Assembly: GCA_021299855.1 (NCBI GenBank)
Contig: JAJTEY010000024.1
Coordinates: 1-39,047, forward strand
Source: Bacteroidota bacterium
GTDB taxonomy: Bacteria > Bacteroidota > Bacteroidia > Palsa-965
Direction: 5' to 3'
DNA: 39,047 bases
The notes under the pieces are model-generated. The model searched no databases, had not been told where the DNA came from, and saw only the letters and a list, made by a program, of their open reading frames with translations. Every line of letters begins with the position of its first letter. The stretch's first letter is position 1. The translations under genes were made by a program, and so were the position numbers. Shown here piece by piece: positions 1,775-14,144 of the stretch.

Positions 1775-1830
1775 CAAATCTACCTGCGCAGTATCACGCC
1801 AACATGAAACCGAGTTTATAATAACGTTAC
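1775..1830 (-). promoter_or_regulatory. Promoter with Pho-box-like 11-bp repeats for the beta-helix gene
   Basis: On the minus strand a perfect Bacteroidota -7 element TAGATTTG lies at 1775-1782, 31 nt before the ATG. Upstream, 7-bp units recur every 11 bp: GTGATAC (1791-1797), TTCATGT (1802-1808), ATAAACT (1813-1819) and GTAACGT (1824-1830). The last unit before the -7 box ends 8 bp from it, the same phase as at the porin promoter. A TTG (1800-1802) could act as -33, 17 bp upstream of the -7 box. PhoB-family regulators are known to bind 11-bp direct repeats; assignment to PhoB here is inference. Confidence 0.6.
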
Positions 1831-1852
1831 CAATCGGGTGTGGTTTGTAAAC

Positions 1853-1880
1853 AAAAAAGACCGTGATCACTCACGGCCTT
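1853..1880 (-). terminator. Intrinsic terminator after the TonB-dependent receptor
   Basis: On the minus strand AAGGCCGTGA and TCACGGTCTT form a 10-bp stem (one G-U pair) with a 4-nt loop, followed by a T-run (1853-1858). It lies 22 nt after the receptor stop, so the receptor and the following beta-helix gene are probably separate transcripts. Confidence 0.85.
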
Positions 1881-1901
1881 AACATTAAGAAAACATTGCG
1901 A

Positions 1902-4814
1902 TTAATTCGTCTTCGGCTCCAGCAAGCGAACTGTGAATCCGATCGTGTAATACGTGCCTCGCTGGAAAAACTGCATTTGCTGATCATTATTACGATCTAA
2001 AGTTCCATCTCCGTTCGCATCCTGCAACAACACAAAATTCTGATTTAACAAATCGGTAATGTTTAAGCGCACATCAATATTCTTTTGCTTACCAATTGTT
2101 TTAACAATAGCCAGATCCACCTGATGGCGAAGCATTTCATACACTTCCGGAATCCCGGGAATACCCACAATAACAACACGAGGTCCGATAACGTTATACA
2201 TTGCATTCACCTGTAAACCGATGCTGTCGTTCTGATAAAACAAACCTGCGTTTACGATCCATGGAGATTGCCCCATCATCGGACGTTGATTGTTGCGATT
2301 ACCGATACTGTCGTCCGTTAATTCAATGGCACTTTTAATGAAAGCCGCATTTGCCACAACAGACAAATTGCGAATCACCGGCACATTTAAACTGTCCAAC
2401 TTCTTACGAACTTCCACTTCAACACCATAGTTGTTTGCCAGTGGAGCATTGCCCCAAGTAAAGCTTCGCGTACCTCCGGATCCAACACCCGGCACGAAGT
2501 ACATTTCGATAGGATCAACAAAGCGCTTATAAAATGCACCAACCGTAATATTTTCTCCGGGGCGCGGATAAAACTCCCAACGCAAATCGAAATTATCTAC
2601 TGATGCCGTCCGCAAGGAATCGTTACCGGTATTAATACTATTAAAAATAAAGTCATAGAAGTAAAGCGGCGCAATCTCACGGAACTCAGGACGATTTAAC
2701 GTTTTACCATATGCCATGCGCACCAACATGCGGTCGGTTAAATTATATGCAACATTGATTGAAGGCAACACACGAGTAATATCGTTGTTCACCATAACTG
2801 TATCGCCCGGGATGGTATTACTATTCAGCTTTTGAATGCTTCGCTCTAAACGCACACCACCACTTATACGCACACGTTCGTGTTCTTCTCCATCGGTCTT
2901 CCCCACGAAGTTGCCGAACGGCATCACAGCCATCAAATAAGCTGCTTGAATATCAATGGATGAATAATATTGGTCCGCTTTCTTGGTGTCTTCATCAATG
3001 GCAAGACCATCAACGTTATTGATATTTTCAGGAGCAAATAACTGACCTATAGGTGTAGTTAAAAGTTCTTGATTGGTATACGTCTGGAATGATCCGGCTT
3101 TATACCCTAAGTTTCGCACGTTGAAACTACGCTCTTTGGATTCCACATACACACCTGATTTCAATGTAAACGTGTAACCCGCTTTTTTCGCTATGGTATC
3201 TGCACCCAACGTAATTTTTTGCTCTACGTTGGCAGTGGCTGCATAAATATCTTCTTTCATGTCAATATAAAGGCGACCCAAGAAGAAAGGTTGCGCACTA
3301 AACGGCAGATACAAATTATAAGGATCAGATTCCGGAGCACTGAATGCTTTTGTATAACGCACACGCTTCCAGTCCGGCTCGGTGCGGCGCGCAGCAGAAT
3401 ACGCTAATGTATAATCCACTTTCGTACGCTCTTTGTTAAAACTGTGCTCACCACCCAACTGCCCGGTGTACAACAAACGCTGACCATAACGGTAGGAATA
3501 CTCTTGGCGATAATCTCCTTCTTCAATATTTCTTCCACCGCGTAACGTTGTTTCATTATCGCCCATGTTATTCAGCAAGTTTTTCAATGAAATGCGATGC
3601 TGTCCTTCTTTACCAAAACGAACGGAATTATTCTGAACCAATGCAACACGCACACGATTCGTATAAATACCATCTTCGTAATAGAACACAGTATCAGATT
3701 GCTGAAACGCCGGATTATAAGTGTTATAATCCAAACGATTCGATTGGAAATACGCATTCGTGTTGGAATAATTCAATGATGTGATATTCCCGAATTGAAA
3801 TCCTTGTTTACTTAAACGATAAGCATACGTCATGTTTACACGATGATCTAACGGTGCGTTGTATTCACGATTGGCCCAATTGGAATCCAGTGAACGTCCT
3901 AAATCCTGAATAGCTTGCGGATCGTTATTAAAGTCACGCACATTGGATGCGAACCCTTCAGGCAATGCACGATCCTTAGCACCAAAACTCCACTTGTCCA
4001 TTTTACTTCCTTCATTCATTACAAAAGGCTGGAACGTTGTCCCTGTTCTAAAACCGGAAGCATAATTCACGGTGAAATTGGTCTTCTCAGGAATATCCGT
4101 GGTTGAAACTTTCACCACACCACCCGAAAATTCTCCGGGTAAATCGGGAGAAGGCGATTTGTACACCATGAAACGATCAATCATTGCACTCGGAACGAGA
4201 TCGAACGAAAACGCTTTTACATCAGATTCTACCGAAGGTGCTAACACATTATTTAACAACACGGCATTGTAACGCTCCGACAAACCACGTACCACCACAA
4301 ATCGATTATCTACAACTGTTACACCCGGAATACGACGCGCTACCTGACTCGCATCCGTAGCTGTAGACTTTTGAATTTCACTTTTAGCTTGCCCGTCTGC
4401 TGCAACGTTACCTTCTTTAATATCTGCCAACACGCTGGTTTGTGAACTTGTCGGGCGCGATTCATAAATCACGACAAATCCTGAGGTATCATTACCTACT
4501 AACTGTGATGCAGGTTCAATCGGGATATCTAAAACTGTTGTCTTTCCTGCCACAACATTTACATTCTGAATAGTAACGGGAGCAAAGCCCATTACTTTGC
4601 AGCTTACACTATAGGTGCCGGGCTTAATTCGGATGACATATTTTCCGTCAAAATCGGTTTGTGCGCCGGATGTAGTGCTGTCCACGCGCACGATTGCGCC
4701 AATAACAGGAGAAGCATTTGCCTTCTCGGTAACTGAACCTGATATGGTACCTGTTTGTGAATAGCCCGTCATTATTACAAGAAGACCGCTCAGAATACCG
4801 AATAAATGTTTCAT
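1902..4814 (-). CDS. TonB-dependent outer-membrane receptor with carboxypeptidase-like regulatory domain
   Basis: A 970-residue TonB-dependent receptor, importing a scarce ligand across the outer membrane using TonB/ExbBD energy. I chose ATG 4814 because it starts a clean signal peptide (MKHLFGILSGLLVIMTGYS, then Gln); the ORF extends nine codons further upstream without adding anything. Residues ~20-105 are a CarboxypepD_reg-like beta-sandwich (GTISGSVTEKANASPVIGA.. with DFDGKY). A plug follows (ARRIPGVTVVDNRFVVVRGLSERYNAVLLNN), then a long aromatic-rich barrel. No SusD-type partner is adjacent, so it is not a SusCD pair. It is divergent from the PhoB/PhoR-like genes, and its promoter carries the same 11-bp repeats as the porin and phosphate genes. 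From this I infer a phosphate- or organophosphate-related ligand; the sequence alone does not show the substrate. Confidence 0.9.
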   Translation of the reverse strand: MKHLFGILSGLLVIMTGYSQTGTISGSVTEKANASPVIGAIVRVDSTTSGAQTDFDGKYVIRIKPGTYSVSCKVMGFAPVTIQNVNVVAGKTTVLDIPIEPASQLVGNDTSGFVVIYESRPTSSQTSVLADIKEGNVAADGQAKSEIQKSTATDASQVARRIPGVTVVDNRFVVVRGLSERYNAVLLNNVLAPSVESDVKAFSFDLVPSAMIDRFMVYKSPSPDLPGEFSGGVVKVSTTDIPEKTNFTVNYASGFRTGTTFQPFVMNEGSKMDKWSFGAKDRALPEGFASNVRDFNNDPQAIQDLGRSLDSNWANREYNAPLDHRVNMTYAYRLSKQGFQFGNITSLNYSNTNAYFQSNRLDYNTYNPAFQQSDTVFYYEDGIYTNRVRVALVQNNSVRFGKEGQHRISLKNLLNNMGDNETTLRGGRNIEEGDYRQEYSYRYGQRLLYTGQLGGEHSFNKERTKVDYTLAYSAARRTEPDWKRVRYTKAFSAPESDPYNLYLPFSAQPFFLGRLYIDMKEDIYAATANVEQKITLGADTIAKKAGYTFTLKSGVYVESKERSFNVRNLGYKAGSFQTYTNQELLTTPIGQLFAPENINNVDGLAIDEDTKKADQYYSSIDIQAAYLMAVMPFGNFVGKTDGEEHERVRISGGVRLERSIQKLNSNTIPGDTVMVNNDITRVLPSINVAYNLTDRMLVRMAYGKTLNRPEFREIAPLYFYDFIFNSINTGNDSLRTASVDNFDLRWEFYPRPGENITVGAFYKRFVDPIEMYFVPGVGSGGTRSFTWGNAPLANNYGVEVEVRKKLDSLNVPVIRNLSVVANAAFIKSAIELTDDSIGNRNNQRPMMGQSPWIVNAGLFYQNDSIGLQVNAMYNVIGPRVVIVGIPGIPEVYEMLRHQVDLAIVKTIGKQKNIDVRLNITDLLNQNFVLLQDANGDGTLDRNNDQQMQFFQRGTYYTIGFTVRLLEPKTN

Positions 4815-4838
4815 GTACATGCTGTATAAAATCAGGTG

Positions 4839-4894
4839 CAAAGAAACCTTTGGTAAGTTGTGTGCGCATTACGCCAATATGAACTTGATGTTAA
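4839..4894 (-). promoter_or_regulatory. Promoter with Pho-box-like 11-bp repeats for the TonB receptor
   Basis: Minus-strand units at 11-bp spacing: ACAACTT (4855-4861), GTAATGC (4866-4872), TTCATAT (4877-4883), TTAACAT (4888-4894). The nearest unit ends 8 bp before a -7-like element TTTCTTTG (4839-4846), which is itself identical to the porin -7 element, including the preceding GG. The two distal units are the strongest. Confidence 0.55.
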
Positions 4895-4931
4895 GTCTCG
4901 CTAATCGGAAAAGATGTATAATTGAATATAA

Positions 4932-4976
4932 TTAATGTTTTATTAACGTGTAAGGTGCGAACACACTATACCTTTG
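4932..4976 (+). promoter_or_regulatory. phoB promoter with candidate autoregulatory Pho box
   Basis: Direct repeats TTAATGT (4932-4938) and TTAACGT (4943-4949) are spaced 11 bp apart. A perfect -7 element TACCTTTG (4969-4976) lies 22 nt before the phoB ATG. The end of the second unit is 19 bp (11+8) from the -7 box, so the phase matches the other four promoters. Autoregulation is an inference. Confidence 0.6.
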
Positions 4977-4997
4977 TTTCGAATTAAAATGTAAAGA

Positions 4998-5675
4998 ATG
5001 AGTACGGAACACAAGATTTTACTGGTTGACGATGAAGAGGACATTCTTGAATTTTTGAGCTACAACCTCAAGAAGGAAGGATATAAAGTTTATACTGCTT
5101 TGAACGGTGAAGAAGGATTAGAAGTAGCAAAGAAAGAATTACCTAATTTGATTTTGTTGGATGTGATGATGCCGGGTATCGATGGCATCGAGGTTTGTCG
5201 TGAAATACGAGGAATTCCCGGATTAAAAGATGTACTTATTGCGTTCTTATCCGCACGAAGCGAAGATTACTCGCACATAGCAGGATTTGATGCAGGTGCC
5301 GATGACTACATTAACAAACCTATCAAACCACGCGTTCTATTGAGCAGAATCAAAGCTTTGTTACGTCGTGGTCAGCCTGTAAAAGACAGTATTCCGGAAG
5401 ATTTGGGCGGTATTCGAATTGATCGCGAAAGTTATTTGGTACACAAAGAAGGACAGGAAATTTCATTGCCTCGTAAGGAATTCGAATTGTTGTCGTTGCT
5501 TGCGTCAAAGCCCGGTAAAGTGTTTGCCCGCGAAGACATCTTAAATAAAGTTTGGGGCGGCGAAGTTGTTGTAGGCGATCGAACAATTGACGTGCATATC
5601 AGAAAGCTTCGTGAAAAGTTGGGAGAAGATTATATCAAAACCGTAAAAGGTGTTGGTTATAAGTTTGAATTCTAA
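4998..5675 (+). CDS. phoB: PhoB-like DNA-binding response regulator (OmpR/PhoB family)
   Basis: A 225-residue regulator of normal length. The receiver domain (residues ~5-120) has the acidic pair D11/D12, phospho-acceptor D55 in LLDVMMPG, S85 and K107 (INKPIKP). A winged-helix output domain follows (~130-225; DRTIDVHIRKLREKLG and VKGVGYKFEF). It would be phosphorylated by the histidine kinase 40 bp downstream and bind 11-bp direct repeats. The pairing with the kinase and the surrounding phosphate genes (porin, DUF47, PiT) supports a PhoB role. The family also includes PhoP-type regulators, so the symbol rests partly on context. Confidence 0.85.
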   Translation: MSTEHKILLVDDEEDILEFLSYNLKKEGYKVYTALNGEEGLEVAKKELPNLILLDVMMPGIDGIEVCREIRGIPGLKDVLIAFLSARSEDYSHIAGFDAGADDYINKPIKPRVLLSRIKALLRRGQPVKDSIPEDLGGIRIDRESYLVHKEGQEISLPRKEFELLSLLASKPGKVFAREDILNKVWGGEVVVGDRTIDVHIRKLREKLGEDYIKTVKGVGYKFEF

Positions 5676-5715
5676 TCTCCTTGCAATCCTTATATTTAAG
5701 GATAAATTATAACAC

Positions 5716-6762
5716 TTGAGCAAATTTTCCCGACTCGAAATTCAGACCATTGCTGCGGCAGGCTTTCTAGGCATTGTTGCAGCCGGTTGTGATTTATTAT
5801 TATCTCATTTCACCAGCTGGGGGATTCTTGGCGTAGCCATTGTTACGGCAGCAACTACCGTCATTACTGCGTTAATTCTTATTCGCTCAGTTATTCGTCG
5901 ATTTGCTTTATCACGCATCAATGCCTTGTACCGTACCATTTATAACATCCGTCAACTGGAAGATATCACCGTTAACCACTCCGGAAATACGGATGAATTG
6001 TTGAATCAAATTCAAAAAGAAGTTACAGATTGGGCTAAAACACGTACATCCGAAATTGAAGACTTGCGCAAACTGGAAGTGTATCGAAAAGAATTTTTGA
6101 GCAACGTTTCGCACGAATTAAAAACTCCCATCTTCAATATTCAAGGATATGTGACTACGTTGTTAGAAGGTGGTATGGAAGACCCGACGATCAACCGCAA
6201 ATATTTGGAACGTACTGAAAAAAGTGTGGAGCGAATGATTCACATCATTCAGGATTTGGAGTCGATTTCGCGTATTGAAAGTGGGGAGTTGGTTTTGGAT
6301 AAAGAAAATTTCGACATCGCAGACATGGCAAAAGATATCATTGAGGCGCAGGAAATGAAGGCGGGAAAAAAGAATATCAAAATAAAAGTTCGCGAATCCG
6401 CACGTTCTCCACGTGTTAATGCCGACAAAGAACGGATACGACAAGTATTGACGAACCTCATTGTTAACTCCATCAAATACGGGAAAGAAAACGGCAGCAC
6501 GGAAATTTCATTTCAAGATGTGGAAGACCGCATTCTCATTGAAGTTTCGGATGATGGTATCGGTATTGCTCCGGAGCATTTACCGCGCCTCTTCGAACGA
6601 TTCTATCGAGTGGATAAAGGTCGTTCGCGGGACCAAGGCGGCACAGGACTTGGGTTGGCTATCGTAAAACACATTCTCGAAGCGCACGGGCAAAGTATCA
6701 ATGTCCGCAGTAAAGAAGGCGCCGGATCTACATTTTCATTCACGCTTAACAAAGCCAAATAG
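5716..6762 (+). CDS. phoR: PhoR-like sensor histidine kinase, TTG start
   Basis: A 348-residue membrane histidine kinase. Translation probably starts at TTG 5716: an in-frame stop lies two codons upstream and there is no early ATG. Two hydrophobic helices (~10-30 and ~36-57) are joined by a turn of only a few residues, so there is no periplasmic sensor domain. A linker (~60-125) leads to the H-box (FLSNVSHELKTP, H133). The ATPase domain has N-box NLIVNSIKYG, G1 DDGIGIAPEHL, the F-box FERFYRVD and G2 GGTGLGLAI. No PAS domain is evident. Lack of a periplasmic domain fits known PhoR, which senses through the transport machinery and a PhoU-type protein rather than phosphate directly. It follows the regulator gene by 40 bp in an operon. 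Confidence 0.85.
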   Translation: MSKFSRLEIQTIAAAGFLGIVAAGCDLLLSHFTSWGILGVAIVTAATTVITALILIRSVIRRFALSRINALYRTIYNIRQLEDITVNHSGNTDELLNQIQKEVTDWAKTRTSEIEDLRKLEVYRKEFLSNVSHELKTPIFNIQGYVTTLLEGGMEDPTINRKYLERTEKSVERMIHIIQDLESISRIESGELVLDKENFDIADMAKDIIEAQEMKAGKKNIKIKVRESARSPRVNADKERIRQVLTNLIVNSIKYGKENGSTEISFQDVEDRILIEVSDDGIGIAPEHLPRLFERFYRVDKGRSRDQGGTGLGLAIVKHILEAHGQSINVRSKEGAGSTFSFTLNKAK

Positions 6763-6814
6763 CAATCTGATTTTGACCAAAAAGTGAAGGTTTCCGCTTC
6801 AAAAATCCTTTGCT

Positions 6815-6822
6815 TACTTTTA
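6815..6822 (+). promoter_or_regulatory. -7-like element immediately before the M43 protease
   Basis: TACTTTTA (one mismatch to TAnnTTTG) ends 4 nt before ATG 6827, predicting a leaderless or nearly leaderless mRNA. Confidence 0.4.
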
Positions 6823-6826
6823 GGTC

Positions 6827-8098
6827 ATGAAAAAATTGTTACTCCTTTCCGCTTTGGCGTTATCCCATTGGACTTTCGCGCAAGCTCCAGAAAAATGCGG
6901 CAGTATGCAAGCTTACCAGCAGCAACTGCAACACCCCGTGCATGGCCGTAACACCGCAGCGGTGCAAGCTGCAGCTAATCAATGGCTGGCGAACAATCCA
7001 AATGCAGGTAATAATCGTTCTGTAATTACCATTCCTGTGGTTGTTCATGTAGTGTATAGAAATGCCACGCAGAACATTACCGACCAGCAGGTCTATTCAC
7101 AAATAGCAGTGCTTAATCAGGATTTTCGTCGTTTAAATGCCGACACCGTAAACACGCCTGCTGTGTTTGATACCATCGCGGCAGACATGGGCATTGAATT
7201 TTGTCTGGCGACCACAGATCCTAACGGAAATCCAACCAATGGAATTACACGTACTTCCACAACAGGAGGTCAATTGTTCGGATTCTTCGGGCCATTCGAT
7301 GATGTGAAAGCGTCTTCAACGGGAGGCATTGATCCTTGGCCAACTGATAAGTACTTTAATATCTGGGTATGCGAGTTATTCCCCGGATTATTAGGGTACG
7401 CACAGTTTCCGGGTGGCGATCCTATGACTGATGGCGTTGTTATTACTTATAATGCATTCGGAACAATAGGAACGGTTCAGGCGCCCGCGTTATTGGGTCG
7501 TACCACCACACACGAAGTTGGTCACTGGTTAGGATTGTATCACATCTGGGGTGACGATCAGGATTGCACCACAGGAATTGATTCTATTCCGGATACACCG
7601 AACGCTGCCGCAGCATCTCAGAGCGATTGTAACGTGACACTCAACAGTTGCAGTAATGAAGATCCTTATTGGGGAACCGTTGATCCACCGGACATGGTGC
7701 AGAACTACATGGATTATTCCAACGATTCTTGCATGAACATGTTTACGCTTGGACAAAAAGCACGTGCATACAGTTTCCTGGCGACCGACACATTGCGTAT
7801 TGCATTGTTGAATTCAAACGTTGGATGTAATCCTTTAGGGATTGTAAATACAACTATTGATAAATACTTCTCGTTTTATCCGAATCCTTCCGATGGAATG
7901 ATCAACGTGAGTTACTTCGGAAATTTGTCAGGCACCATTCAGTACGATGTTTATAGTATCACCGGACAATGGGTAAAAGGATTTACTGCAGGACCCGGAA
8001 ACACACAATTAAACCTGGAAGATTTACAACCCGGCGTTTACACCATTCGCATTACCAACAATAACGAAAGTGGTGTTCAACGCATCGTCATTCAATAA
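6827..8098 (+). CDS. Secreted M43 (pappalysin/cytophagalysin-type) zinc metalloprotease with T9SS sorting domain
   Basis: A 423-residue exported protease. The signal peptide MKKLLLLSALALSHWTFA is followed by Gln. The catalytic domain (~65-330) has the metzincin zinc motif HEVGHWLGLYH (residues 229-239) and a downstream Met-turn (QNYMDYSNDSC, M295), typical of family M43. Paired cysteines around 247-302 suggest disulfides and an extracellular location. The last ~75 residues are a type A T9SS C-terminal domain (FSFYPNPSDG ... LQPGVYTIRI ... QRIVIQ), so it should pass the outer membrane by T9SS. It is convergent with the glycosyltransferase gene and shares a terminator with it. A larger paralogue lies at 35656-37773. 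Substrate unknown. Confidence 0.92.
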   Translation: MKKLLLLSALALSHWTFAQAPEKCGSMQAYQQQLQHPVHGRNTAAVQAAANQWLANNPNAGNNRSVITIPVVVHVVYRNATQNITDQQVYSQIAVLNQDFRRLNADTVNTPAVFDTIAADMGIEFCLATTDPNGNPTNGITRTSTTGGQLFGFFGPFDDVKASSTGGIDPWPTDKYFNIWVCELFPGLLGYAQFPGGDPMTDGVVITYNAFGTIGTVQAPALLGRTTTHEVGHWLGLYHIWGDDQDCTTGIDSIPDTPNAAAASQSDCNVTLNSCSNEDPYWGTVDPPDMVQNYMDYSNDSCMNMFTLGQKARAYSFLATDTLRIALLNSNVGCNPLGIVNTTIDKYFSFYPNPSDGMINVSYFGNLSGTIQYDVYSITGQWVKGFTAGPGNTQLNLEDLQPGVYTIRITNNNESGVQRIVIQ

Positions 8099-8113
8099 AG
8101 TAACCGCGATTAC

Positions 8114-8146
8114 AAAAAAGGTCAACAGTTTATGTTGGCCTTTTTT
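8114..8146. terminator. Bidirectional terminator overlapping the glycosyltransferase 3' end
   Basis: A 14-bp arm (8114-8127) pairs with 8133-8146 (one G-U pair) around a 5-nt loop, with A-tract and T-tract on the two flanks so it can work on either strand. The last codons and stop of the minus-strand gene (stop 8130-8132) form part of the hairpin. Confidence 0.9.
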
Positions 8147-9209
8147 GTTGCAACAAAACGGGCAAGATGCGCAACGCTGTATCTAAAAGTGACTCGTCAT
8201 TGCTTAACTGCAACGGAATATTTTTTTCAGGAAACTGTACTGCTTGACGCAAACTCTCGGAAGATCCATCCATGATGGTGATTCCTTTCGTTTTCAAATA
8301 ACGTCCCAAATATTCCTGCTCTGTTTGTCCCGGCGTGGGAATTCCGATAAACGATTTCCCGAATTGCGCTACATCACACAAAGTAGAATAACCGGTTCTG
8401 GAGATAATCACCTTCGCGTTGCTGATGAGTTGACTTAACAATTGATCATGGGCATAATTGTAAATAGCAATATTCCCAACCTGCTGCCTTTCTCGCGACA
8501 ATTCACTTTTCCCCAAAACCATCACGTGTTTGCCCGGACAATTTCGCAACTCATTTACTACATATTGTTCCAACTGCGAACGCATCGGTTCCGGGCCTGA
8601 ACAAATCGTTAATGTGTCTATTAGTTCATTCGCAGTTACTTGTTTTAAGCGCGTTTGTGGACCTATGTACTTCACGTTCTTAACGCGTGAGTCATGGCCT
8701 AACTCGCCGGAAAGATTGTCTTCCCCCGGCAAATCCGGAACCCAAACAGCATCAAACTTATTCATGACAGCACGATGCCAACACGATGGTAAAATACTTC
8801 CAAACGCGCTCTTCACCTGAAGTTGATGCGTGATATAAACCGACGGAACCTGTTTGGAATAAAAACCGAAGCGGTTATCCGAGATCACATAGTGAATTCC
8901 CATTTGTCGCACTGCGAATTCAACGTGATCCTGCTCGTGTTGTATTTGCCTCAATAATTGGGGAAGTTGAGAGAATAACGACCAGCTCAAATAAGCATGT
9001 TCGGGAAAGCGTATCGTGTATTCGGGAATATCCGAAAAAACTGCATTCTTAAATTCCAATTCCCACAGCTTTCGGGCACGTCCTTCTGCTGCCAGAATCA
9101 CTTCGGCTCCGTGCTCCTGCAACACACGAATTACAGGCACACTGCGTGAAGCGTGACCTAATCCCCAATTGAGGGCTCCGTATAAAATGCGCTTTCCCGA
9201 CAGGTGCAT
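8130..9209 (-). CDS. MurG-like GT-B glycosyltransferase
   Basis: A 359-residue protein with the GT28/MurG-like GT-B fold. The N-terminal half starts with LYGALNWGLGHASRSVPVIRVL (Gly-rich loop plus His-Ala-Ser-Arg), then a second Rossmann-like half ends in the nucleotide-sugar site: ISRTGYSTLCDVAQFGK, then IPTPGQTEQEYLG. It lacks membrane segments. The family transfers sugars from UDP donors to lipid or secondary acceptors; the acceptor cannot be told from sequence. It is divergent from trmB with only 59 bp between; GATATTTG (a one-mismatch -7 element) sits 4 nt before its ATG. It is not true MurG, as there are no cell-wall neighbours and conserved MurG residues are not all evident. Confidence 0.75.
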   Translation of the reverse strand: MHLSGKRILYGALNWGLGHASRSVPVIRVLQEHGAEVILAAEGRARKLWELEFKNAVFSDIPEYTIRFPEHAYLSWSLFSQLPQLLRQIQHEQDHVEFAVRQMGIHYVISDNRFGFYSKQVPSVYITHQLQVKSAFGSILPSCWHRAVMNKFDAVWVPDLPGEDNLSGELGHDSRVKNVKYIGPQTRLKQVTANELIDTLTICSGPEPMRSQLEQYVVNELRNCPGKHVMVLGKSELSRERQQVGNIAIYNYAHDQLLSQLISNAKVIISRTGYSTLCDVAQFGKSFIGIPTPGQTEQEYLGRYLKTKGITIMDGSSESLRQAVQFPEKNIPLQLSNDESLLDTALRILPVLLQQKRPT

Positions 9210-9253
9210 ACCTCAAATATCGCTTTTCATTCCCTTCTCTGCGCTTCAACGTG

Positions 9254-9261
9254 TATTTTTG
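9254..9261 (+). promoter_or_regulatory. -7 element of trmB
   Basis: TATTTTTG matches TAnnTTTG perfectly and ends 7 nt before ATG 9269. This also argues against an upstream GTG start at 9251, which would put the promoter inside the gene. Confidence 0.55.
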
Positions 9262-9268
9262 CCGCGTC

Positions 9269-9994
9269 ATGAGAACAAATAAACTGGAACGTTTCGCTTT
9301 AATGCGCGAAATGCCACACGTGCTTCATTTCGGGTTCCGCGATTTACAATCCGGCTTTCATCCGCTACTAGGGAGATGGGGTAAGGATCATTTTAAAAAT
9401 GATCATCCCATTATTCTGGAATTGGGATGCGGAAAAGGCGAATACACTGTTGGACTTGCACAGCGTTATCCTGATAAAAACTTTATCGGTTTGGATGTGA
9501 AAGGTGCGCGTATGTTTATCGGTGCAACTCAATGTGTTCAGCAAAACATTTCCAACGCCGCGTTTCTCCGTACACGTATCGATTTCATCAACGCGATATT
9601 CGGAGAACAAGAAGTCGATGAGATCTGGATTACTTTTCCCGATCCTCAAAAGGAGAAAGAACGCAAGCGATTAACACACCCACGTTTTTTGAAACGTTAT
9701 GCCCGCATATTAAAACCGGGAGGCATTGTTCATCTTAAAACGGACAGTCAGCTATTACACGAGTTTACCAAAGAAATCATTCAGCAAGAAAATTTGATTC
9801 CTATATGCGCGGATAGCGATGTGTACAATACTTCGCAAAAGCTCGACAGCGTATTAACGGAAATTCAGACCACTTACGAAAAGAAGTTCCGCAAGCTGGG
9901 AATGTCGATCACGTATGTCAGTTTTCAACTTCCGTCGGGTTATGGGGCTAATGAACCCATATTTGCACTCGATTATCGAGATGGAGAACGTTAA
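9269..9994 (+). CDS. trmB: tRNA (guanine-N7-)-methyltransferase
   Basis: A 241-residue SAM-dependent enzyme that makes m7G46 in the tRNA variable loop. Motif I LELGCGKGEYT, an acidic post-I (FIGLDVKG), the TrmB signature FPDPQKEKERKRLTHPRFL and LKPGGIVHLKTD are all visible. I chose ATG 9269 over the upstream GTG 9251, since a promoter box overlaps the GTG-led extension and the family starts near here. It has its own promoter and no obvious operon partner. Confidence 0.93.
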   Translation: MRTNKLERFALMREMPHVLHFGFRDLQSGFHPLLGRWGKDHFKNDHPIILELGCGKGEYTVGLAQRYPDKNFIGLDVKGARMFIGATQCVQQNISNAAFLRTRIDFINAIFGEQEVDEIWITFPDPQKEKERKRLTHPRFLKRYARILKPGGIVHLKTDSQLLHEFTKEIIQQENLIPICADSDVYNTSQKLDSVLTEIQTTYEKKFRKLGMSITYVSFQLPSGYGANEPIFALDYRDGER

Positions 9995-10082
9995 CCCAAG
10001 GTAAAATCTTAATTGATCTTCAGCGCCTAATGTTGCTTTTTCCTACTATGAAGGTTTCCATATTGTTAAATTTTACATTTTG

Positions 10083-10127
10083 ATAACATTGCGCGGTCAT
10101 TTACTTAACATAACGTAGGTTTCTTTG
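10083..10127 (+). promoter_or_regulatory. Porin promoter with three-unit Pho-box-like repeat
   Basis: Three 7-bp units with 4-bp spacers: ATAACAT (10083-10089), CGGTCAT (10094-10100), TTAACAT (10105-10111). Eight bp later comes a -7-like element TTTCTTTG (10120-10127). CGGTCAT differs from the E. coli Pho-box half-site CTGTCAT by one base. This is the clearest of the five arrays; the proximity of box and -7 resembles known PhoB-activated promoters, where the box replaces the -35. Confidence 0.65.
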
Positions 10128-10161
10128 CGGCGTTAACTCTTTATTACGCCAACGTTAAATC

Positions 10162-11373
10162 ATGCGCCCACTTCTCCTCCTTGCTGCTCTTGTTTGGTCG
10201 GTTACGGTTTCTGCACAAAATGTAGACACGCTTACCAATAAGTTAAAGTTGTCCGACAAAAAAACCTGGTACCAAAAAATGAATCTCCGTGGTTACACGC
10301 AAATTCGTTACAACCGCCTTTTGGAAACCAATCCGGATTTAAAATCAGATTTGGACCGCTCTGTTGGGAATAACGGCAGCGTGTTAATTCGTCGTGGACG
10401 ATTGGTGTGGAGCGGAGACGTTCATCCGCGCATGTTTATTTACATCCAAACTGATTTTGCCGTAACAGCAGGAACCACGTTGCATTACACTGCTTTACGT
10501 GACGCATACTTTGACGTTTCAATTGATACCGCCAAAGTTTATCGCATCCGATTTGGTCAAAGTAAAATCCCCTTTGGTTACGAAAACATGCAATCCAGTT
10601 CTAACCGATTGCCATTAGAACGCGCCGATGCATTGAACAGCGCTGCGCCGGGCGAACGTGACCTCGGAGCAATTTTCATGTTTACACCTAAACGTGTTCA
10701 AAAACACATCTACGACCTTAACAAAAATTCACTCAAGCACTCCGGCGATTACGGCATGTTTGCATTTGGAGCCTACGTGGGTCAGGGAATTAACCGCGCG
10801 GAAGCGAACAACAACTTGCATGTCATTTCCCGCGTGTCTTATCCATTCGGAATTAAAAATCAGGTGGTGGAATTCGGCGTTCAGGGTTATACCGGATTTT
10901 ATACCATGAGTAAAGATCAATTGTCGTCCGGAACGAAAACCAATAGCGATGCAACATACCTCGATCGTCGTGCGGCTGCATCGTTTGTGTTGTATCCAAA
11001 ACCATTCGGGATTTTAGCGGAATACAATATTGGTAACACCCCGATGTACAATGCCGCCAACGATTCTATTACCACCGGGTATCTGGAAGGTGGATTTATC
11101 ACATTGAGCTACTTTATTCCATTGAAGAAAGGCGGAGAACAATTGGTTCCTTTTGCACGCGCACAATATTTCGATGGCGCAAAGAAAATTGATACAGACG
11201 CGCGTAGCTACAAAGTCAATGAATACGAATTCGGTTTCGAGTATTTGATTTTCAAAAACTTCGAATTAACTGTTGACTACTGTATTTCGTATCGCAATAC
11301 GTCTGATAAAGCCAAAGAAAATAATGCACAACAGGGCAATTTTCTACGAATTCAGGTACAGTTAAATTACTAA
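10162..11373 (+). CDS. Phosphate-selective porin O/P family outer-membrane protein
   Basis: A 403-residue outer-membrane beta-barrel. The signal peptide MRPLLLLAALVWSVTVSA is followed by Gln. The body has alternating strand pattern and conserved family features such as GYTQIRYNR, RRGRLVWSGDVHPRMFIYIQTDF, a phrase about FGQSKIPFGYENMQSSS with LPLERADALN, and a C-terminal strand ending FLRIQVQLNY. This matches the OprO/OprP-type porins that pass phosphate or pyrophosphate in Gram-negatives. A multi-repeat Pho-box-like promoter precedes it and DUF47 and PiT genes follow, supporting a phosphate role. Bacteroidota members may differ in selectivity. Confidence 0.85.
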   Translation: MRPLLLLAALVWSVTVSAQNVDTLTNKLKLSDKKTWYQKMNLRGYTQIRYNRLLETNPDLKSDLDRSVGNNGSVLIRRGRLVWSGDVHPRMFIYIQTDFAVTAGTTLHYTALRDAYFDVSIDTAKVYRIRFGQSKIPFGYENMQSSSNRLPLERADALNSAAPGERDLGAIFMFTPKRVQKHIYDLNKNSLKHSGDYGMFAFGAYVGQGINRAEANNNLHVISRVSYPFGIKNQVVEFGVQGYTGFYTMSKDQLSSGTKTNSDATYLDRRAAASFVLYPKPFGILAEYNIGNTPMYNAANDSITTGYLEGGFITLSYFIPLKKGGEQLVPFARAQYFDGAKKIDTDARSYKVNEYEFGFEYLIFKNFELTVDYCISYRNTSDKAKENNAQQGNFLRIQVQLNY

Positions 11374-11410
11374 TACGCTAATTAATAGTACTTTAAGGGC
11401 GCCCAAACTA

Positions 11411-11455
11411 ATAACATTAACTTAACACTGCACATGGGATACCAACCTAAATTTG
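11411..11455 (+). promoter_or_regulatory. DUF47-PiT promoter with Pho-box-like repeats
   Basis: ATAACAT (11411-11417) and TTAACAC (11422-11428) are 11-bp direct repeats with spacer TAAC. A perfect -7 element TAAATTTG lies at 11448-11455, 19 bp (11+8) after the second unit. This is the same phase as at phoB. Transcription would start after 11455, which supports ATG 11491 as the DUF47 start. Confidence 0.6.
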
Positions 11456-11490
11456 ACCCTGAACAAGATTATCCTAGCAATCGTAAACCG

Positions 11491-12045
11491 ATGAGTTTTT
11501 TACAATTCCTCCTACCCAAAGACCGCAAGTTCTTTCCTCTGTTCGAACAAGCGACAAGCAATCTGGTTAAAACATCCAAGTTACTAGTTGAACTGGTTAA
11601 TGTTGAACCTGAAAAGCGCAAAGAATTAATTAAAGAAATTGAGCACCTGGAACATCAGGGCGACAATTTAACGCACTTAATTTTTAATGAATTAAGCCGC
11701 AACTTCATTACGCCATTTGATCGTGAAGACATTCATGCATTAGCTTCTGCTATTGATGATGTATTGGATTTCATTCATGGTTCTGCAAAGCGAATCGATT
11801 TATACAAGATCAAATAATTGCCTGAGCCTATCGTGATGTTGGCTGATGTAATTCTTAAAGGTGCAATCGAATTAAATGTGGCTGTGCGCAATCTGGAAGA
11901 CATGAAACAAATCATGTTGATCAAAGAATCGTGTGTAAAAATCAACAGTCTCGAAAACCACGCAGATGACGTGTTCAACATGGGCATCGCAAAACTTTTC
12001 GAAGAAGAAAAAGACGCAATTCAGATCATTAAGATCAAAGCATAA
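11491..12045 (+). pseudogene. DUF47 family (PhoU-like) phosphate transport regulator, interrupted by a stop codon
   Basis: DUF47 proteins are PhoU-like helical partners of PiT transporters. Start ATG 11491 (MSFLQFLLPKDRKFF) is preferred: the family begins here, and a promoter box lies inside the longer ORF starting at 11434. The frame reads as DUF47 (EHQGDNLTHLIFNELSR, TPFDREDIHALASAIDDVLDFI) until TAA at 11815-11817. It continues seamlessly in the same frame (LPEPIVMLADVILKGA ... LENHADDVFN) to TAA at 12043-12045. So a single in-frame nonsense codon splits it. The C-terminus also stops right after a short IIKIK segment, whereas I expect roughly 30 more residues in the family, suggesting a 3' deletion. 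TTG follows the first stop directly, so reinitiation is conceivable. A sequencing error cannot be excluded. Confidence 0.75.
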
Positions 12046-12060
12046 TACTCGTTACACACG

Positions 12061-13130
12061 ATGACTCTACTTATTCTTATTATCGTACTGGCGATTGCGT
12101 TCGATCTCATCAACGGCTTCCACGATGCAGCGAATTCTATTGCTACTGTTGTTTCTACAAAAGTACTGACTCCGTTTCAGGCGGTATTGTGGGCTGCAGT
12201 TTTCAATTTCGTAGCCTTCTGGATTTTCGATTTAAAAGTTGCTGATACAGTTGCAAAAACCGTACACAGCGACAGTATTAATCTCGCCGTAATTTTCTCG
12301 GGATTAGTTGCTGCGATCTTCTGGAATCTTTTAACCTGGTGGTACGGAATTCCTTCCAGTTCTTCGCACACACTTATTGGCGGATTTGCAGGAGCTGCAA
12401 TTGCTCACGCGGGTTCTTTCGATGTCGTGAATCAGGAAAGCATTTTTAAAACATTCATCTTCATTTTCCTTGCACCGATTATCGGGATGTTGACCGCGTA
12501 TATCATAACCGTGCTTATCATTCAGATTGCCAAGCGCAGTATGCCTTCGAAAGCGGAGCGTTGGTTTAAACGACTGCAATTGGTTTCTTCGGCTGCTTTC
12601 TCCATCGGACACGGTGGAAGTGACTCTCAGAAAGTAATGGGCATTATCGCTGCTGCATTAATTGTGTTCAACGCTCAGCAAATGGCGATTAATCCGGCAC
12701 ATACAGAACCCCATATAAAGCAGAATACAAACAACGTTACGGCAATTCGTTGAAAGAAAAAATCAAACACATTCCTGATTGGGTGCCGTTGGTGTGTTAC
12801 ACCGCAATCGGCTTAGGAACCATGATGGGTGGTTGGCGTATTGTGAAAACAATGGGCACCAAGATCACCAAAGTAACGCCACTTGAAGGTGTTGCAGCGG
12901 AGACAGCGGGCGCAATTACATTGTATGGTGTTTCGCAGGGCTTAGGTGTTCCGGTAAGTACAACACACACTATCACCGGTTCTATCATCGGCGTAGGAAT
13001 GACAAAACGTTTAAGCGCTGTGCGTTGGGGTGTTACCGTTAACTTGTTGTGGGCATGGATTCTTACCATTCCTGTTTCAGGATTAGTTGGTGCAGGAACG
13101 TATCTCATCATGCACGCTTTAGGTTACTAA
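12061..13130 (+). pseudogene. PiT family inorganic phosphate transporter, broken by a -1 frameshift
   Basis: PiT permeases import phosphate by symport and consist of two homologous halves. The first half (12061-12753) has signature GFHDAAN and many membrane helices; the second (ORF 12750-13130) has VPLVCYTAIGLGTMMGGW and VPVSTTHTITGSIIGVG. The frames meet at a run CCCC (12709-12712). Adding one C restores continuous coding through the alternative frame (PYKAEYKQRYGNSLKEKIKH then PDWVP). The break sits in the loop between halves. As written, the first frame runs into TGA at 12751-12753, overlapping a TTG (12750) that could start the second half. The second-half motif GGSDSQK has Ser where I would expect Asn. 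It follows the DUF47 gene by 15 bp. Confidence 0.8.
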
Positions 13131-13163: not shown

Positions 13164-14144
13164 ATGAGAAGCGACATTCAGCTGTTCGATGATAGTGTGC
13201 ACAGTTTTGAAGCTGTTGCATTAGAAGTCTTTCGTTACCAGTTCGACAACAATGCCTTCTATCGTCGCTTTTGTGAATTACAACATAAAACACCCGCAAC
13301 GGCAAACTGCATTCAAGATATTCCGTTTCTGCCGATTGAGTTTTTCAAGCAGCAAACGATTTATAGCTATTCGCAAGAACCGGAAATCGTATTTACCAGC
13401 AGCGGAACCACAGGCAGCATAACAAGCCGGCATCCTGTTGCGAAATTATCGTTGTACCAAGAAAGTTTCCTCCGTGGATTTCGGTATTTCTATGGCGATG
13501 AAACAGAATGGACGACTCTCGCATTGTTACCATCATATCTGGAACGTGAAGGCTCATCCCTGGTTGTCATGGCCGATGAATTAATTCGACGCTCTTCTTA
13601 TCAAGAGAGTGGTTTCTACTTACACAACTACCGCGAACTCGCACAACAGTTGTCTGTCTTAAGCCGGCAACCCAATCGTAAAGTATTGTTGTTGGGTGTT
13701 ACCTATGCACTGCTCGATTTGGCAGAACAATTCCCACAAGCACTGCATCACATTGTGGTCATGGAAACCGGCGGAATGAAAGGCAAACGCAAAGAAATGG
13801 TTCGCGAAGAATTGCATCACACATTAAAAACAGCATTCGATGTTCCTGCAATACATTCCGAATACGGCATGACCGAACTCCTCTCACAAGCTTATTCCAA
13901 AGGCAACGGAATATTTGAAACACCGCCCTGGATGCGCATCTTAATTCGCGAAATGAATGATCCGCTAACGTACGTTGAACCCGGAAAAAGCGGCGGAATA
14001 AATATCATTGATCTTGCGAACAAATACAGTTGCAGCTTCTTAGCAACTTCCGATCTCGGGAAACAACACGGTGATCATCAATTCGAAATTTTAGGTCGTT
14101 TTGATTTCAGTGATGTTCGTGGTTGCAACCTGATGGTGGAATAA
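13164..14144 (+). CDS. LuxE-like acyl-protein synthetase / acyltransferase
   Basis: A 326-residue member of the LuxE acyl-protein synthetase family, ANL-like enzymes that activate fatty acids as acyl-AMP and hold the acyl group as a thioester. The P-loop-like motif FTSSGTTGS (residues ~91-99) and the downstream SEYGMTELLSQ adenylation motif are clear. Bacteroidota carry this gene without luxCD and its substrate is not known. The -7-like GAACTTTG (13152-13159) lies only 4 nt before the ATG. The PiT gene stop is 33 bp upstream. No signal peptide. Confidence 0.75.
   Translation: MRSDIQLFDDSVHSFEAVALEVFRYQFDNNAFYRRFCELQHKTPATANCIQDIPFLPIEFFKQQTIYSYSQEPEIVFTSSGTTGSITSRHPVAKLSLYQESFLRGFRYFYGDETEWTTLALLPSYLEREGSSLVVMADELIRRSSYQESGFYLHNYRELAQQLSVLSRQPNRKVLLLGVTYALLDLAEQFPQALHHIVVMETGGMKGKRKEMVREELHHTLKTAFDVPAIHSEYGMTELLSQAYSKGNGIFETPPWMRILIREMNDPLTYVEPGKSGGINIIDLANKYSCSFLATSDLGKQHGDHQFEILGRFDFSDVRGCNLMVE

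Follow-up and report, generated by a model that had tools for sequence, protein, structure and literature searches.

Direct repeats phased to the -7 box as the very probable Pho box of class Bacteroidia

Introduction

Bacteroidota are dominant in the gut, in soil, in the rhizosphere and in the sea. A Pho box related to the repeats described here is that of Bacillus subtilis PhoP, which consists of TTAACA repeats with a period of about 11 bp; the core and the approximate period are shared, and the B. subtilis box belongs to Firmicutes promoters and usually contains more repeats.

Other Pho boxes differ in their unit, which is CTGTCAT in Escherichia coli and GTTCACC in Streptomyces coelicolor (PMC4415409), with E. 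coli boxes situated 10 bp before the -10 box (PMC1906773). The box reported here resembles the E. coli PhoB box, as described in those sources, in having 7 conserved and 4 less conserved bases, in its direct repeats and in its location upstream of the core promoter; E. coli targets are pst and phosphatase genes. It differs in its unit and in lying 8, 19 or 30 bp from a TAnnTTTG box rather than 10 bp from a sigma-70 -10 box. An E. coli-type Pho box was rejected as a description of these repeats, the unit here being TTAACAT and the spacings being different.

The cyanobacterial counterpart of PhoB, SphR, recognises CTTAACCT repeats spaced at 11 bp, which stand before pst, phoA and nuclease genes (PMC1906773), and the Bacteroidota box likewise precedes genes of these kinds. 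As far as the sequences go, the Bacteroidota box is closest to this cyanobacterial one, for both place a nearly identical unit (CTTAAC) in tandem direct repeats whose period is 11 bp (8 bp + 3 bp for SphR). According to the SphR description, the differences are that the unit ends in CT in SphR but AT in Bacteroidota, that SphR boxes have at least three repeats whereas two seem enough in the Bacteroidota class with a 19-bp spacer (N19), and that the Bacteroidota box keeps a distance of 8, 19 or 30 bp from the Bacteroidota -7 box.

Phosphate regulation itself has been described in Bacteroidota. B. fragilis PhoB binds the pstC promoter (a 512-bp fragment) in an electrophoretic mobility shift assay (EMSA), and deletion of phoB lowers pstSCAB-phoU by factors of about 17 to 540, with a 52-fold drop for a putative phosphate/sulphate permease; the words 'consensus' and 'repeat' are absent from the main text of that report (PMC3547664). 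The low-phosphate PhoBR/PUS regulon of F. johnsoniae includes the same cluster as the one studied here (glycosyltransferase, OprP, PhoR, PhoB, TonB-dependent receptor (TBDT) and beta-helix protein FII), with induction measured, and the main text of its description contains no occurrence of 'Pho box', 'motif' or 'promoter' (PMC8115612). Neither 'PhoB' nor 'TTAAC' appears in the main text of the F. psychrophilum transcription-start map (PMC9723704). A 2015 paper, whose study organisms included flavobacteria, states that the PlcP gene clusters of marine bacteria contain putative Pho boxes, and gives no sequence in the portion of its text considered here (PMC4796936). Among the matches listed, titles and opening lines of abstracts in the open-access literature gave no Bacteroidota Pho-box sequence, a coverage that does not establish priority.

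A box with fixed promoter geometry would make the phosphate regulons of Bacteroidota predictable from sequence, suggest a likely role for orphan TonB receptors and beta-helix lipoproteins, and allow what has been published on F. johnsoniae and B. fragilis to be recast as a binding model open to direct test.

Results

Repeats and promoters of the window

The window is a stretch of 39,047 nucleotides that forms one whole contig of a 72%-complete, 2.08-Mb Bacteroidota genome. In its part of interest, the genes from left to right are those of a secreted beta-helix protein (incomplete) and a TonB-dependent receptor, then phoB and phoR, followed by genes for an M43 peptidase, a glycosyltransferase, a TrmB-like methyltransferase (Methyltransf_4), a protein of the phosphate-porin family, DUF47 and PiT. 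The original prediction had described 7-bp units recurring every 11 bp upstream of five of these genes, and all of the units were located (Table 1); its distances from a unit end to the -7 box were confirmed throughout as 8, 19 or 30 bp, that is, 8+11n. The porin array has an additional unit that had been overlooked, TTTACAT at 10072, preceding ATAACAT-N4-CGGTCAT-N4-TTAACAT, and the -7 boxes of the porin and the TonB receptor (TTTCTTTG) lack the A of TAnnTTTG.

Table 1 Features of the window, with candidate Pho boxes scored in bits
Feature	Positions	Strand	Units, spacer and -7 box	Score or basis
Secreted beta-helix protein, 5' part (gene runs off contig end)	1–1743	-		Homologue of F. johnsoniae FII/FI/FIII
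Candidate Pho-box array of beta-helix gene	1775–1830	-	GTAACGT-N4-ATAAACT-N4-TTCATGT-N4-GTGATAC (units 1824–1830, 1813–1819, 1802–1808, 1791–1797); 8 bp; -7 TAGATTTG 1775–1782	15.9 bits
TonB-dependent receptor (CarboxypepD_reg, Plug, beta-barrel)	1902–4841	-		Domains
Candidate Pho box of TonB receptor	4839–4894	-	TTAACAT 4888–4894, CAAG, TTCATAT 4877–4883; 30 bp; -7 TTTCTTTG 4839–4846	18.1 bits
Candidate Pho box of phoB	4932–4976	+	TTAATGT 4932–4938, TTTA, TTAACGT 4943–4949; 19 bp; -7 TACCTTTG 4969–4976	25.9 bits
phoB, OmpR-family response regulator	4998–5675	+		65% identity to F. johnsoniae PhoB
phoR, sensor histidine kinase	5716–6762	+
Glycosyltransferase (PF04101/PF13528)	8130–9209	-		Homologue of low-phosphate-induced Fjoh_0541
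Candidate Pho-box array of porin	10072–10127	+	Units 10072–10078, 10083–10089, 10094–10100, 10105–10111; 8 bp; -7 TTTCTTTG 10120–10127	19.0 bits
Phosphate-selective porin O/P family (PF07396)	10162–11373	+
Candidate Pho box of DUF47-PiT	11411–11455	+	ATAACAT 11411–11417, TAAC, TTAACAC 11422–11428; 19 bp; -7 TAAATTTG 11448–11455	23.0 bits
DUF47 (PhoU_div), probable start ATG 11491	11491–12042	+		One in-frame TAA
PiT phosphate permease (PF01384), coding split between two frames	12061–13130	+

To avoid circularity, the window was scored with a matrix trained on 23 phoB and pstS promoters, all from outside its family, and both strands were scanned for pairs of units that are separated by 4 bp and lie 8, 19 or 30 bp away from a -7 box. 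At a threshold of at least 14 bits, which like the window sizes was chosen post hoc after first looks, the sites found on either strand were exactly those of the five named promoters. At the same threshold, ten other phases yielded 0–4 sites and ten other spacers 0–2. Within the window, no site of at least 8 bits precedes the glycosyltransferase gene.

The DUF47 promoter falls within a mechanically called open reading frame (11434–11817), so translation probably starts at ATG 11491 rather than at 11434; the protein beginning there (MSFLQFLLPKDRKFFPLFEQ) resembles the DUF47 proteins of relatives. This DUF47-PiT segment (11434–13130) carries an in-frame TAA at 11815–11817 within DUF47 and has PiT in two frames, and the internal stop is absent from the 30 other DUF47 matches among relatives; the stop and the frame split reflect either a sequence error in the draft genome or decay. 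On the minus strand at 1851–1878, between the genes for the TonB receptor and the beta-helix protein, a terminator-like hairpin followed by a T run was noted by eye and is consistent with separate promoters for the two genes. A LuxE-type acyl-protein synthetase is encoded near the cluster (13164–14144), and a protein of similar appearance, again judged by eye, occurs at 583966 in F. johnsoniae, shortly past the FII gene.

Upstream regions in relatives

Searches among the window's relatives found DUF47 in 31 of 59 genomes and PhoB in 53 (E≤1e-60), together with the PstS family in 43 at E≤0.001, of which 17 exceeded the family cut-off. Several DUF47 upstream regions are near-perfect, for example TTAACAT-TGGC-TTAACAT at 19 bp from TACATTTG (locus L038). 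When the training set of the matrix consisted solely of the window and DUF47 promoters, sites of at least 14 bits were present in 13 of 29 phoB upstream regions (the window's own phoB left out and 29 of the 52 others used) and in 10 of 30 upstream regions of the pstS family, as against means of 0.07 and 0.12 in dinucleotide shuffles. The pstS loci that reached the threshold comprised 8 of the 17 over the family cut-off and 2 of the 13 below it. Other phases gave 0–7 (phoB) and 0–4 (pstS) regions in these sets, and other spacers 0–5 and 0–4.

Later counts used all 53 phoB regions, or the 52 other than the window's. Among the 52, sites of at least 14 bits were in phase (±1 bp) in 27 and out of phase in 7, with a shuffle mean of 0.1, and 7-4-7 pairs of at least 10 bits occurred in 23 (other spacers, 0–4). 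Sites in the exact register numbered 19 of 53 with the window included, and 11 of 42 outside its family. When the distance between box and -7 was left free from 2 to 44 bp, the best distance in the 30 regions reaching 14 bits was 19 (10 regions), 20 (6), 30 (5), 8 (4) or 18 (1), with four others found once each. At the threshold, a site was absent from 25 of the 52 phoB regions and from 20 of the 30 pstS-family regions, including 9 of the 17 loci over the cut-off.

Genome-wide pattern searches

The box alone is weak evidence: without a -7 box and at up to 3 mismatches it matches 343 times in the window's own genome, where the reversed pattern matches 499 times; F. anhuiense similarly lacks enrichment (137 versus 285 reversed). 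The combined pattern TTAACAT-N4-TTAACAT-N19-TANNTTTG at up to 3 mismatches has two matches in the own genome (2.08 Mb), namely the phoB and DUF47 promoters of the window, against one for the reversed pattern. The corresponding N8 form with -7 was not enriched in F. johnsoniae (6 versus 8 reversed), where the sites found later lie mostly at 19 or 30 bp rather than 8.

Across 16 genomes, the N19 form at up to 3 mismatches had 37 matches against only 25 reversed. At up to 2 mismatches, 13 of 14 matches precede DUF47 (6), phoB (4), a phoB paralogue, pstS or a phosphoesterase, an assignment made partly by eye from N-terminal sequences and wholly so for the phosphoesterase (L343). In 395 genomes of class Bacteroidia, up to one mismatch gave 59 matches (56 genomes, 24 families) against 3 for the reversed pattern. 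All 59 were inspected, and the genes downstream were named from Pfam matches and from their clustering in BLAST with proteins of the window. Phosphate genes follow 31 of them: the phosphate-porin family (10; 7 by Pfam match and 3 by BLAST clustering only), DUF47 (8; one run against Pfam, the rest clustering with it by BLAST), PiT (7), pstS (2) and, once each, phoB, a PhoR-like kinase, a PlcP-like phosphoesterase and a Na/Pi cotransporter. Genes of TonB-receptor-type outer-membrane proteins follow a further 10, and the other 18 sites comprise 16 before genes without an evident phosphate role and 2 without an open reading frame. The original prediction called for enrichment at other phosphate genes, and this was borne out across the class, in which promoters of pstS, phoB, PiT, DUF47, Na/Pi-cotransporter, PlcP-like and Porin_O_P genes carry the box.

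Positions left free by the pattern are also conserved. In the 58 class-wide sites with full flanks, a T follows the two units in 78% and 60%, a C precedes the second unit in 60% and another follows the -7 box in 57%; an A-rich leader is conserved as well. Past its first two bases the 19-bp spacer has no position conserved above 0.18 bit in these 58 sites, which indicates that two units seem enough and rules out a required third unit.

Low-phosphate expression in F. johnsoniae

We recognised the F. johnsoniae genome by a GldM 100% identical to a PDB chain that we take to be from this species. Its 574–583 kb region is a cluster of counterparts to the window's glycosyltransferase, porin, phoR, phoB, TonB receptor and beta-helix protein, all of them homologues. 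Locus tags were assigned from position, gene order, length and the Pfam column of Table 1 of PMC8115612 rather than from annotation; Fjoh_2225, 3187 and 0074 could not be placed, and 3414 was placed by position only. The published low-phosphate 'FC' values, which we took as log2, are 5.42 for the glycosyltransferase, -1.3 (not significant) for the porin, 0.76 (not significant) for phoR and 3.06 for phoB, and they reach 8.02 for the syntenic TonB receptor (Fjoh_0545) and 9.91 for the beta-helix protein (Fjoh_0546), supporting the proposal that the receptor and its secreted partner are phosphate-regulated (PMC8115612, Table 1).

Promoters were scanned in 61 stretches of 20 kb (1.22 of 6.10 Mb), with genes called within them; low-phosphate-induced genes in the whole genome number 95. 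The box is linked to induction: with a list of 18 heads of low-phosphate-induced operons, drawn from that published table and fixed post hoc, after a first ranking of 972 promoters, 12 of the 18 fell in the top 40 of 600 (area under the curve (AUC), 0.896; 0 of 5,000 label permutations as good). The 582 controls had an upstream gap of at least 80 bp, non-head genes with less being left out; OprP, PhoR and 13 internal induced genes were also left out, and promoters at stretch edges or containing N were dropped. In this ranking other phases placed 4–10 heads in the top 40, phase +5 being second best with 10, and other spacers 2–7. An earlier matrix applied to 970 promoters, again leaving out OprP and PhoR, placed 11 heads in the top 40 (AUC, 0.911). 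When the ranking took in all 31 induced genes, those inside operons among them, the AUC was only 0.699; other phases gave 0.592–0.677, and spacer 7 reached 0.714.

Exceptions occur in both directions. Some induced heads have no good site, namely phoB Fjoh_0544 (rank 106 of 972), the ECF sigma factor 4171 (102), TBDT 1368 (138), sigma factor 3859 (137) and FI 3856 (944). Conversely, the site of OprP Fjoh_0542 ranks 3 of 972, yet the gene is uninduced (-1.3, not significant), and it is doubtful that the window's porin is an induced gene despite its box. The promoter of PafA, whose transcript is unchanged in Table 1 of PMC8115612, ranks 406. The rank-2 promoter among the 600, off the head list, precedes the gene of a 506-aa lipoprotein at 4,078,967, where neighbouring tags place Fjoh_3414 (10.32). 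Two further strong in-phase sites stand before genes that, as far as they could be placed, are absent from that table: rank 1 at 5908763, before a gene for a 153-aa protein, and rank 6 at 1817974, before one for a secreted protein that by eye is endonuclease/phosphatase-like.

Discussion

The repeats very probably represent the class Bacteroidia Pho box, with a sequence of about (C)TTAACATTNNCTTAACAT and a -7 box, TAnnTTTG, that follows at 8, 19–20 or 30 bp. Their 7 conserved bases recur as direct repeats across a 4-bp spacer, they lie just upstream of the core promoter, they precede phosphate-starvation genes across genomes and they are associated with low-phosphate induction in F. johnsoniae, on a post hoc list and with exceptions such as OprP. 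Where the original prediction spoke of the Pho box of the phylum, the Pho-box reading and the association with phosphate genes are supported class-wide; the genomes covered all belong to class Bacteroidia.

Taken as a whole, we have high confidence that the best explanation is a Pho box bound by phosphorylated PhoB, which would activate from one helical face. Two head-to-tail 11-bp units ahead of the core promoter are the arrangement of PhoB-type activators. In this model, PhoR would sense phosphate shortage and give rise to phosphorylated PhoB, which as a head-to-tail dimer would bind two 11-bp repeats, about CTTAACATTNN. A pair at 8, 19(–20) or 30 bp from the TAnnTTTG -7 box of the primary sigma factor would lie on one helical face, allowing PhoB to contact RNA polymerase and activate. 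Within the window, PhoB would act on its own gene (autoregulation) and on those of the TonB receptor, the beta-helix protein, the porin and DUF47-PiT. The least certain part is that polymerase may be contacted from more than one distance, as the 8, 19 and 30 registers suggest.

In the strongest competitor, the 8+11n phase is a by-product of two spacing preferences, a pair over the -33 region and occasional extra units, with no helical-face rule. We regard this as unlikely but well worth weighing. With the gap left free, most optima fall in the 19–20 register (16 of 30 regions, as against 4 for register 8 and 5 for register 30), the N19 spacer shows no conserved third unit and phase +5 is second best in F. 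johnsoniae; against this, registers 8 and 30 recur, and 9–17 and 21–29 are missing from the list of optima.

An improbable alternative accepts the box and gives its main binder as another OmpR-family response regulator. Proteins of this family often read 11-bp direct repeats, several relatives have second PhoB-like regulators, and one of these (L341, genome G002), adjoining a beta-helix gene, has the box in its own promoter. However, in many families phoB itself has the box in front of it, as genes of phosphate uptake do throughout, and in B. fragilis it is PhoB that controls and binds the pst promoter (PMC3547664).

Chance TTAACAT-like matches in AT-rich promoters can be discounted almost entirely, for although the box alone at 2–3 mismatches (two genomes) and the N8 form with -7 (F. 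johnsoniae) are no commoner than their reversed patterns, chance as a general explanation is refuted by the shuffles (27 of 52 phoB regions versus 0.1), the reversed-pattern counts (59 versus 3 with -7 in 395 genomes) and the peaks at spacer 4 and phase 0. The single weak units CGGTCAT, GTGATAC and ATAAACT could be chance.

Under the PhoB reading, we put at somewhat below an even chance the further idea that one PhoB dimer site activates from several registers (8, 19 and 30) in a Pho regulon centred on outer-membrane import, comprising TonB receptors, phosphate porins and here possibly an exbB-exbD-exbD-tonB-pstS-like operon. If true, phosphate starvation would directly switch on energised outer-membrane uptake machinery class-wide. 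In B. fragilis, BF4130 (PstS-like, +4.10) and BF4134 (ExbB, +3.78) are reported to change with phosphate (PMC3547664).

The best listed box match in the window's own genome (L331, contig C72, 767–4957; 1 mismatch) heads such an exbB-exbD-exbD-tonB-pstS-like operon, so named from its sequence and one weak PstS family match, and has a moderate -7 box at 30 bp.
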